Shown one piece after another: positions 2,304-5,354 of a DNA stretch of 51,315 bases. Both the position numbers and the translations under genes were made by a program. The stretch comes from Acidimicrobiia bacterium (lineage in GTDB: Bacteria; Actinomycetota; Acidimicrobiia; Spongiisociales; Spongiisociaceae), in NCBI GenBank assembly GCA_011523635.1, contig WTGI01000015.1, forward strand, positions 1 through 51,315. The letters are read 5' to 3'. The notes beneath the pieces were generated by a model, which worked only from the letters and a program-made list of their open reading frames with translations, did no database searches and was not told the DNA's origin. Every line of letters begins with the position of its first letter. Within the stretch, counting starts at the first letter, position 1.

Positions 2304-2507
2304 TCAGCCGCACCGACCGGAATCTCGCATGAGGGATCGAATTACACGGATGTAACTGTTGTTCTGTTCCTTTATTTTGCGAGTAACTTAACAATTTCGG
2401 ACCTCTGCGGGCCGGGGCCGCGGACGACCAGGGGTCCGGTTCAGTACGGGCTACCTGAAATGGTCACACACCTGAACCACCCGATTGTTCGGTATGATTA
2501 TTTTGCG
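2304..2507 (+). promoter_or_regulatory. AT-rich spacer with a candidate promoter for a leaderless Fic mRNA
   Basis: Part of this spacer, about 2335-2400, is far more AT-rich than the rest of the window. A good -10-like hexamer TATGAT lies at 2493-2498, ten bases before the ATG at 2508. Transcription would then begin at or within a few bases of that ATG, giving a leaderless or nearly leaderless message, which is common in actinobacteria. No strong -35 element is visible. This was read by eye only. Confidence 0.35.
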
Positions 2508-3524
2508 ATGAGCGAACAAATTCCCGTTCTCAGGCCGGGTAGACCAACCCGCAACGACGTCTATAACCGGCTCGCCGTCCAGATCCGGCAACTCCAGGAT
2601 CGCTTGGGGGGGCTTCCCGGTCCGATCGAGGCGACCGGCATCTGGAAGGGGATCTGGCATGGAGAAGTCCATCACTCCACCGCCATCGAAGGCAACACGC
2701 TGGTTCAACGCGAGGTCGATGTGCTGCTCGAAGACGGAAGGGCCATCGGTGATCGGACTCTGCGCGAGTACCTGGAGGTCAGGGGATACGCCGATGCCGC
2801 GGAGTGGGTGTACGGGCAAGTGGCCCCGTCGCGAGGAGCATCCGAAGCCGGCCCGATCCTGACGCTGGCCGATGTCAGAACCGTCCATCACAAGGCGATG
2901 GCTCCGGTGTGGGAAGTCACGCCCCACCCCGAAGCCACCGAACGCGAGAGGCCGGGCGCCTATCGGGAGCACGAGATAAGGCCTTTCCCCGGCGGGATGA
3001 CCCCTCCCTCATGGCCGCTCGTCCCCGGGGAGATGACTGCGTGGATCGAACAGGCGAACTCGCTCGATCCCACCGCTCTCGACTTCCCTGAGCAACTAGC
3101 CGCCCTTCACTGTCGCTTCGAGCAGATCCATCCGTTCCTCGACGGGAACGGGCGCGTCGGGCGGCTGGTCCTGAACCTGATCCTCGTCCGGCTCGGCTAC
3201 CCGCCGGCGATCATCTACAAGCGCGACCGGGCACGGTACCTCCGCGCGCTGCAGCGAGCCGACGAGGGTGAACCGGGAACCCTGGGCATGCTGATCGCCC
3301 GCGCCATCCTGGACACCCTCTACCAGCACGTGATACCGGCCGTGGCAGGGTCGGCGCGCCTGGTCCCGCTCGCCGCGCTGGCCACACCCGACCTCAAGGC
3401 TCCGGCTCTGCGGATCGCAGCCTCCCGCGGCAGGCTGCAGGCGACACGGGCACCGGACGGCCGGTGGCGAAGTTCGCGTGTCTGGGTCGAGGAGTACAAG
3501 GCGAGCCGCTGGATCCGGACCTAG
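2508..3524 (+). CDS. Fic domain protein (putative AMP transferase) with N-terminal inhibitory helix
   Basis: The catalytic Fic motif HPFLDGNGRVGR is complete near residue 208, including the catalytic His and the GNGR phosphate loop. Near residue 57, STAIEGN matches the inhibitory-helix pattern [S/T]xxxE[G/N] placed N-terminal to the Fic core, the class II arrangement in which the Glu restrains activity. The C-terminus is basic and may hold a DNA-binding or winged-helix segment. Fic enzymes usually transfer AMP to hydroxyl side chains of target proteins. I chose the ATG at 2508 rather than the in-frame ATG at 2460 because a TATGAT element lies just upstream. A Doc-like remnant lies beside it on the other strand. 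Confidence 0.88.
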   Translation: MSEQIPVLRPGRPTRNDVYNRLAVQIRQLQDRLGGLPGPIEATGIWKGIWHGEVHHSTAIEGNTLVQREVDVLLEDGRAIGDRTLREYLEVRGYADAAEWVYGQVAPSRGASEAGPILTLADVRTVHHKAMAPVWEVTPHPEATERERPGAYREHEIRPFPGGMTPPSWPLVPGEMTAWIEQANSLDPTALDFPEQLAALHCRFEQIHPFLDGNGRVGRLVLNLILVRLGYPPAIIYKRDRARYLRALQRADEGEPGTLGMLIARAILDTLYQHVIPAVAGSARLVPLAALATPDLKAPALRIAASRGRLQATRAPDGRWRSSRVWVEEYKASRWIRT

Positions 3525-3587
3525 ATACCGCACCGGACCATCCAAATCGCCAAGAGACCGCAGGCAGGCTGGAGCGAGAGGGGTGGC

Positions 3588-3764
3588 TCAGGCGAGGAGC
3601 CGCCTGAGTTGACCCGCCAGCTGGTCAATGTCTTCGTTTCCGGCCGCGACATCCATCACGAACCGGTAGACATCGTCGTTGGCAATGCCGGTGACCGTGA
3701 CCCCATTGATCTCGAAGAACGTCGCTGTGCCCACGGCGTGATGGTGCCGGATTGAGACTAGGCC
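3588..3764 (-). pseudogene. C-terminal remnant of a Doc/Fic-type toxin
   Basis: On the minus strand, an open stretch reads HHHAVGTATFFEINGV and then DDVYRFVMDVAAGNEDID, followed by QLAGQLRRLLA and TGA at 3588. This resembles the end of death-on-curing proteins, where a helix carrying FLxLNG is followed by a [DE]xxxxVMxVAxG segment. The HPFxxxNKR active motif and everything before it are missing. A stop at 3765-3767 closes the frame and the only in-frame start would be a GTG giving 49 residues. I read it as a decayed toxin gene. The family match is from memory and by eye. Confidence 0.5.
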
Positions 3765-3815
3765 CTATTCGTGGGATCGACCGGCCCGCCGACCATCGGT
3801 ACACTCCACCGGCTG

Positions 3816-5354
3816 ATGGACTACGACATCGTCTTTCTCGACCGGGTGGAGTTGACACCTGTCTCGCGCCGGGCCTTGGAGAGGGTCGGCTCGGTCAGGA
3901 CGGTTCCAGTTACGGCTCAGGAGGACCTCCTGGCAGCGGTGCGTGATGCGGACGCCGTCGTCTACCATCTGTTCCCCGGCCATCTGACGCGAGACGTTCT
4001 GGAGCGTTGCCGCCGTCTCAGGGTCATCGGCCGGATCGGCATAGGCATGGATCAGGTGGACCTGCCGGCCGCTGCCGGAGGTGGCATCACCGTGGTCAAC
4101 GCGGCCGGCGCCCAGGCCGCCGCGGTCGCCGACCATGCCATGGCCCTGATGTTGTGCCTCGCTCGCAACGTTGTGGCGTCCCACACGGCCCTCGTAGCAG
4201 GGGACCGCAACCCTCCGTGGCAGTTCATGGGAGTCGAACTGGAGGGCAAGTCCCTGGGCATCATCGGCTTCGGCGCCATCGGGCGGCGTCTCGCCCAGCG
4301 GGCCTTCGGGTTCGGGATAGCGGTCCAGGCATACGATCCCTACGTCGCGCCCGACGCCATCGAGGAGGCCGGAGCTACACCCGTCGGCCTGGCCGAACTG
4401 CTCGCCGGCAGCGACTTCGTCTCCGTCCACGTCCCCCTCACGGACGAGACCTGGCATCTGATCGGCGCGGATGAACTCGCCACGATGCGACCCACCGCCT
4501 ACCTGGTCAACACGGCGCGGGGCCCCATCCTCGACGAGGCCGCCCTTGTAGCCGCTCTGCGCGACGGAGTGATCGCCGGTGCCGGACTCGATGTGTACGA
4601 GGAGGAGCCACTGGCGCCCGGCAACCCGTTGCTGGCGCTCGATGGGGTGGTGCTCACCCCGCACATCGCCGGATGGGCGATAGAGGCCCAGGTCCGCACC
4701 CAGGAGAGCGTGGTGAAGGACGTGGCCCGGGTGCTACGGGGTGAGACCCCTGTCAGCCCGGTCTCGAGTGCCGGTGGTACGGGAGCACCTTCGTCGACCG
4801 GCGCCGGGCACCGGCCCGGTGAACCCCGCCCGGCCGCCCAGCCGATGCTTCCGTATTCCGCATGGGAGGAGAGCGGGCTTCCCCACCCCAGTGCCACCCA
4901 TCCGTTCGGCGCTGTTCCGGGCCTGCGGAGGATCATCGAGACGGAAGGACCGGTCACGACCGATCGGGCCTACAAGGTCTACATACGGGGATCGGGCTCC
5001 ACCCGGGTCACCAAGCTGGCCAGGTCCAAGCTGGATCAGGCCGTCAACCGTCTGCTTGCTCAGAAGCAGGCGCAGATCGACGAACTGGGCAGCCCGGGAG
5101 ACAGCGAGTACCAGCGCGTCCTCCGCGTCCCCGGGAGTGCACCGGTAGTCGTTCGCGAGATCGGAAGCCGCGACCTCTACGAAGTGCCGCTGAACGAGGT
5201 CGTGGCCTTGATGCGGCAACGACTCGAACAGTTCCCGGGTGCGTCACACGAGGAACTGATGCGCTTCGTCCTCGATACCTACGGATGGAAACGCCTCACC
5301 GACAAGGCCCGTACCTACCTGACCGATGCGATCCGCTTGATGTACGAGGGGTAA
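3816..5354 (+). CDS. D-2-hydroxyacid dehydrogenase fused to a C-terminal DUF3320-like domain
   Basis: Residues 1-310 form a full NAD-dependent 2-hydroxyacid dehydrogenase: Rossmann motif GFGAIGRR near 150, catalytic Arg in NTARGPILDEAALV, Glu in VYEEEP and His in TPHIAG near 281. After a Gly/Pro/Ala-rich linker (about 310-345) comes an unrelated stretch of about 165 residues, with IIETEGPVTTDRAYKVYIRG, then VREIGSRDLYEVPLNEVVAL and YGWKRLT. It resembles the winged-helix-like region found at the C-terminus of some actinobacterial helicase and nuclease proteins (DUF3320 type). The frame is continuous and the fused protein has 512 residues. ATG 3816 is preferred over GTG 3771 because it starts at the first Rossmann strand. 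Confidence 0.82.
   Translation: MDYDIVFLDRVELTPVSRRALERVGSVRTVPVTAQEDLLAAVRDADAVVYHLFPGHLTRDVLERCRRLRVIGRIGIGMDQVDLPAAAGGGITVVNAAGAQAAAVADHAMALMLCLARNVVASHTALVAGDRNPPWQFMGVELEGKSLGIIGFGAIGRRLAQRAFGFGIAVQAYDPYVAPDAIEEAGATPVGLAELLAGSDFVSVHVPLTDETWHLIGADELATMRPTAYLVNTARGPILDEAALVAALRDGVIAGAGLDVYEEEPLAPGNPLLALDGVVLTPHIAGWAIEAQVRTQESVVKDVARVLRGETPVSPVSSAGGTGAPSSTGAGHRPGEPRPAAQPMLPYSAWEESGLPHPSATHPFGAVPGLRRIIETEGPVTTDRAYKVYIRGSGSTRVTKLARSKLDQAVNRLLAQKQAQIDELGSPGDSEYQRVLRVPGSAPVVVREIGSRDLYEVPLNEVVALMRQRLEQFPGASHEELMRFVLDTYGWKRLTDKARTYLTDAIRLMYEG

Follow-up and report, generated by a model that had tools for sequence, protein, structure and literature searches.

A D-2-hydroxyacid dehydrogenase fused to a diverged DUF3320-type module in Acidimicrobiia: a possible enzyme-derived regulator

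The fusion gene

The window analysed, that is, the whole stretch of 51,315 nucleotides from contig WTGI01000015.1 of an Acidimicrobiia bacterium, carries on its forward strand a gene at 3816..5354 that starts with ATG and translates into 512 residues with zero internal stops. The protein can be divided into a D-2-hydroxyacid dehydrogenase part (residues 1-316; 3816..4763), a variable linker rich in Pro, Ser and Gly (residues 317-344; 4764..4847) and a C-terminal module (residues 345-512; 4848..5351), which begins with a PYxxW...LPxP motif. The module comprises a predicted, DUF3320-like first winged helix (residues 364-441; 4905..5138), whose H2-H3 segment has a net charge of +6, and a second, three-helix HTH (residues 459-510; 5190..5345) assigned from predicted secondary structure and alignment only. 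A first-pass annotation of this DNA had described a complete dehydrogenase fused in frame through a flexible linker, in agreement with the uninterrupted frame, with the two Pfam domains that score above their cut-offs, and with the variable alignment columns, dN/dS of 0.3-1.2 and low pLDDT of the linker. The full-length AlphaFold model was poor (pLDDT 54.5) and was not used.

A -10-like box, TACACT (3800..3805, + strand), lies 10-12 bases 5' of the ATG and is kept in all 11 of the 11 readable orthologues, the sequence farther upstream being unalignable across genera. Since the box is conserved so close to the ATG, a start at 3816 is favoured over the GTG at 3771, and its position makes it likely that the mRNA is leaderless.

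Genomic neighbourhood

Upstream of the fusion gene lie a gene for a Fic protein (2460..3524, + strand, E 1.5e-17) and a remnant of a Doc toxin gene that retains its C-terminal ~50 codons (3588..3740, - strand). The first-pass annotation had named both, correctly in each case; relatives carry at the remnant's position an intact Doc (Fic/DOC, E 2e-14) with an RHH antitoxin. Within the genus the fusion gene is flanked by conserved TRAP genes and by a convergent Pot-type ABC operon with a hydrolase, and the slot between the TRAP genes and the fusion gene is variable. Its cargo is Fic in G000 and G005, a divergent pair of RHH antitoxin and Doc in G001, G003, G005 and G007, an OLD-like ATPase in G002 and an FAD oxidoreductase in G004, while in G008 the slot is empty and the TRAP genes end ~130 bases from the fusion gene. 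Other genera again have Fic (G010, G011) and Doc (G010, G013) close to the fusion gene; in G011 the space between Fic and the fusion contains an AriA/Gabija-like ATPase and an AlbA_2 protein. The FAD-dependent oxidoreductase of G004 (L106 11318-12526, - strand; DAO, E 6e-61) ends 90 bases before the fusion gene and resembles by eye L-2-hydroxyglutarate oxidase, a hint at 2-hydroxy acid metabolism.

Comparison of G000 with G007 showed flanks that are mostly 94-100% identical, an unrelated stretch at 2333-3778, and 83-88% identity from 3778 to ~5000, returning to 99% inside the module. Synonymous divergence follows the same pattern, with a dS of ~0.5 in the divergent stretch vs 0.02-0.14 outside it. 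A divergent slot and gene between near-identical flanks fit cassette exchange by recombination in those flanks, and the slot together with most of the fusion gene, at 2333-5100, looks like an exchanged cassette with its boundary inside the module.

In six genomes (G001 L099, G003 L105, G005 L100, G007 L102, G010 L107 and G013 L101) two direct copies of TGATACC, 11 bases apart, precede the fusion gene by ~50-80 bases. Considering that the repeats are confined to the six genomes that keep Doc, they are probably the operator of that toxin-antitoxin pair, and they were dropped as an operator of the fusion gene; no other candidate operator for it was found upstream.

Conservation of the fusion

Of the 14 other species-level genomes in the family, 11 contain the same in-frame fusion, with 63-90% identity. 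One of the 11 is a single-contig 3.0-Mb chromosome (OY282370.1); in G006 the contig ends within the fusion gene. No orthologue lacking the extension was found in the family, the three genomes without the fusion holding only paralogues of at most about 45% identity. Both parts of the protein are under purifying selection, dN/dS being 0.13-0.23 in the enzyme part and 0.08-0.25 in the module, against 0.3-1.2 in the linker. The window derives from a metagenome-assembled genome, which raises the question of an assembly chimera or a chance readthrough that joined two genes. Such an artefact is extremely improbable given the identical in-frame junction in 12 genomes, the single-contig chromosome included, and the purifying selection on both parts; these independent assemblies rule out an assembly error at the junction.

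The dehydrogenase part

Residues 1-316 are a complete D-2-hydroxyacid dehydrogenase. They match PF02826 (2-Hacid_dh_C, E 2e-60, 203.6 bits vs a cut-off of 25.1) and PF00389 (2-Hacid_dh, E 4.7e-23, 81.8 bits vs 24.6), and the residues of the family are all present: the glycines G151, G153 and G156 of the GFGAIG motif (residues 151-156), the acidic, NAD-selecting D174, and the catalytic R235, E264 and H283. The nearest solved structure is a phosphoglycerate dehydrogenase (1wwk, E 2.3e-66), with glyoxylate reductases also close, and a relationship to CtBP is detectable (E ~1e-45). W287 is invariant in the fusions, the equivalent position of 1wwk being a Ser.

The NAD motif and the catalytic R235, E264 and H283 are conserved in 11 of the 12 fusion orthologues, so catalysis is probably retained. 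The sole exception is G003 (L011 1501-3045), which carries R235K and H283R with its NAD motif, E264 and module preserved.

The C-terminal module

The first-pass annotation had likened the C-terminal part to the DUF3320-like domain of large helicase or nuclease proteins. The likeness extends over both predicted winged helices, although the module scores only 15.6-19.1 bits with DUF3320, under the Pfam gathering cut-off of 25. Using hhalign, the profile of the dehydrogenase-borne modules aligned with that of the helicase- and coiled-coil-borne ones over 130 columns (98.5 probability, E 3.5e-15); the partner profile includes L090, which passes DUF3320 at 73.7 bits. DUF3320 is matched by 15 of the 16 members of the wider module set, at best with 4e-12. 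The module also matches the final 120 positions of the NCBIfam anti-phage ProA (NF058533; E 4.2e-7, 24.5-27.7 bits), whose cut-off of 1500 bits is set for the full-length helicase-nuclease, and the end of PADLOC PDC-S37 (E 3.3e-8). These matches cover the C-terminal end alone and Pfam found no helicase or nuclease domain, which places the protein outside ProA and PDC-S37. From these alignments we conclude that the module is homologous over its length, both predicted winged helices included, to the C-termini of MTES_1575-type helicase-nucleases (DUF3320 plus a second HTH), and that it is a diverged DUF3320-type copy. MTES_1575 ends in two wHTH domains that overlap DUF3320, and such C-terminal wHTH have been proposed to recognise invading DNA (PMC3710099).

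The module was also modelled alone from a shallow alignment of 11 rows (pLDDT 74.5), giving an H-H-H-E-E first half followed by three further helices. Winged helices make up the overwhelming majority of the Foldseek and VIA matches of this model; many belong to DNA-binding transcription factors (HxlR, MarR/PadR types, FoxO1), and the winged helix of cohesin is also among them. The VIA Z reaches 9.8 for the first winged helix only and the best Foldseek E is weak (0.018); the model supports a winged-helix fold for the first half of the module. With a pI of 8.9 the module is basic, vs 4.9 for the enzyme part; other fused modules are partly neutral or acidic (AT5 pI 5.1, several SnoaL ~6). Neither ACT nor any other known regulatory domain of dehydrogenases was matched by the module in Pfam or NCBIfam. 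Matches to 'Pizza' designer proteins were discarded as repeat artefacts (single stretches of ~6 bits), and those to HD_assoc_2 and DUF7793, below cut-off, were taken as chance.

The module on other proteins

Profile searches showed the module to be rare. It occurs in 21 of the 395 genomes searched in this class and in 18 of 349 from one other actinobacterial class, and few of 396 genomes from across the phylum carry it. The carriers in the 21 Acidimicrobiia genomes are 12 dehydrogenase, 3 GNAT and 1 aminotransferase fusions, 3 large helicase frames and 2 short or unclear frames. Pfam identifies the partner as a class-V aminotransferase in L049, GNAT in L060 and L070, SnoaL_2 in L079, HEAT_2 in L089, and AAA_12 with MTES_1575 in L071; AAA_26/BioD-like partners occur in L082 (above cut-off) and L078 (just under it). 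The match of these BioD-like domains to AAA_26 is confined to its later part, and judged by eye they seem to have no P-loop. In L090 DUF3320 stands alone after a heptad-like coiled coil, judged as such by eye. Among plasmids the module was found once, at the end of a Deinococcus helicase, and no relatives were detected in phages or in the viral contigs scanned.

In a tree of the modules, whose deep branches often have weak support and are in some cases long, the enzyme-borne ones and two helicases (G218, Deinococcus) stand apart from the coiled-coil and other helicase modules, and those of the dehydrogenases form one group (support 97/85). One BioD-borne module is placed among SnoaL-borne ones, which suggests a partner swap between these carriers.

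Some further copies were noted. A first-half fragment, with no partner visible, opens a contig from another class of the phylum (L080, G421:C96:30-248), and a short second copy of the module middle, in a 63-codon frame (L061 9971-10162, G008:C67), is apparently what remains of a further module gene on that contig. In G787 a HEAT-repeat protein with a terminal module (L116 6200-7030, + strand) follows PbeA (E 7e-214), PbeC (E 1e-101) and a 140-aa gene with no Pfam match (L116 1473-6183), and is a candidate for a further component of this Pbe phosphorothioate-linked defence operon.

Proposed function and alternatives

The first-pass annotation had suggested a sensor or a defence-associated effector. 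The sensor is the better half of that suggestion, because not all of the domains to which the module is attached (SnoaL, BioD-like, HEAT and a bare coiled coil) can be effectors, whereas the link to defence, through the slot and the Pbe relative, is circumstantial. We give about an even chance to the fusion being an enzyme-derived one-component regulator that binds DNA in an NAD(H)-linked way; it would work in the manner of CtBP or MocR and belong to neither. The N-terminal dehydrogenase would bind NAD(H), and probably a 2-oxo or 2-hydroxy acid too; by dimerising like its enzyme kin it would bring two tandem winged-helix modules side by side, and the state of NAD(H) or substrate would set the binding of these modules to DNA. 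This is the most economical reading, in which we infer the dimer geometry, DNA binding, gating and target genes. It accounts for the presence of the module on domains with nothing but ligand binding or dimerisation in common, and for the tolerance of R235K and H283R in G003 with the NAD site and module kept, a single case that is only suggestive.

In favour of the regulator, 12 genomes keep the fusion intact and conserved, with purifying selection acting on it, and the module is basic, with +6 on H2-H3. The homology to a helicase-nuclease tandem wHTH proposed to recognise invading DNA points the same way, as do the winged-helix matches of the modelled first half, many of them DNA-binding transcription factors. 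The combination of the module with a bare coiled coil, GNAT, SnoaL, aminotransferase and BioD-like domains resembles a one-component architecture, and CtBP (PMC7949142) and MocR (PMC4944035) offer precedents by analogy. Against it, winged helices also mediate protein contacts, e.g. in cohesin, some other fused modules are neutral or acidic, the Foldseek matches are weak, and all but one of the 12 orthologues have their catalytic residues intact.

The chief rival is suggested by the module's family, by the variable slot next to the gene and by the HEAT protein of the Pbe operon. It is an anti-phage or toxin-antitoxin-linked component, in which the module would sense invading or modified DNA with the dehydrogenase as output, or the protein would control the toxin cassette. 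A module homologous to the ends of ProA and PDC-S37 agrees with this, and so do the slot contents, which change by genome between Fic, RHH-Doc, an OLD/AriA-like ATPase or AlbA_2, and the cassette-like divergence of gene and slot, far greater than that of both flanks between G000 and G007. Yet the fusion persists across the family even though what the slot carries changes from genome to genome, and is nothing in G008; nor is a dehydrogenase a known toxic effector. By eye no defence genes were recognised near the GNAT, SnoaL, BioD-like and coiled-coil relatives, and the module was not found in the phages and viral contigs searched, its one plasmid case being a helicase; we consider a defence role unlikely. 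Phosphoglycerate dehydrogenase and its kin bear C-terminal regulatory domains, and the fusion could likewise be a plain, non-regulatory metabolic enzyme whose extra domain helps it to oligomerise or directs it to a place in the cell such as the nucleoid. The conserved NAD motif and R235, E264 and H283 of 11 of the 12 orthologues, and the TRAP and Pot transporter genes that adjoin the fusion gene in its genus, would suit such an enzyme. However, the module is neither ACT nor another known dehydrogenase domain in Pfam or NCBIfam, it also ends unrelated domains, a bare coiled coil among them, and G003 has lost two catalytic residues with the rest retained, so that this explanation seems rather improbable.

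Beyond the single locus, the regulator reading can be extended, as a tentative and somewhat doubtful proposal, to an actinobacterial set of proteins in which a helicase-nuclease tandem wHTH would have moved onto metabolic and ligand-binding domains to give DNA-binding sensors, the dehydrogenase member being a directly DNA-binding, bacterial counterpart of CtBP. A putative DNA-recognition module known so far from predicted anti-phage helicase-nucleases is here linked, repeatedly and with conservation, to metabolic enzymes. Should the module be able to bind DNA by itself, its short coiled-coil and enzyme versions would be small proteins for testing the step at which the giant defence proteins recognise DNA, and the version with the dehydrogenase would amount to an NAD-sensing regulator in bacteria that shares the fold of CtBP.

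Comparison with known systems

Each half of the protein is known already, whereas the fusion and the spread of the module over metabolic domains are not previously described in the literature searched, a body outside which preprints and most subscription journals lay. With the MTES_1575-type SF1 helicase/Vsr-nucleases (ProA NF058533, PADLOC PDC-S37) the fusion shares a homologous C-terminal module of ~130 columns with predicted winged helices; unlike them, it has a dehydrogenase in place of helicase, HEPN and nuclease, and scores below the DUF3320 and ProA cut-offs. In comparison with D-3-phosphoglycerate dehydrogenase and glyoxylate reductase, it shares the fold, the NAD motif and the catalytic Arg/Glu/His, and adds the predicted C-terminal winged-helix module and a Trp at position 287, where 1wwk has Ser.

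CtBP is recruited by DNA-binding proteins, and we know of no wHTH module in it. The likeness to the fusion, a dehydrogenase fold acting as an NAD(H)-dependent transcription regulator, applies within the proposed model only, and CtBP (E 1e-45) is a more distant relative of the fusion dehydrogenase than phosphoglycerate dehydrogenase is (1wwk, E 2e-66). CtBP itself is an NAD(H)-dependent corepressor with a D-2-hydroxyacid dehydrogenase fold (PMC7949142, PMC9907507). MocR/GabR regulators, in which an aminotransferase-fold sensor is connected by a linker to a wHTH (PMC4944035), resemble the fusion in joining an enzyme-fold sensor domain to a wHTH. They combine an N-terminal wHTH with a fold-type I PLP domain, whereas the fusion combines a Rossmann dehydrogenase with a predicted C-terminal tandem wHTH and so falls outside that family; the aminotransferase relative L049 is nearer to MocR in content, with the domain order inverted.
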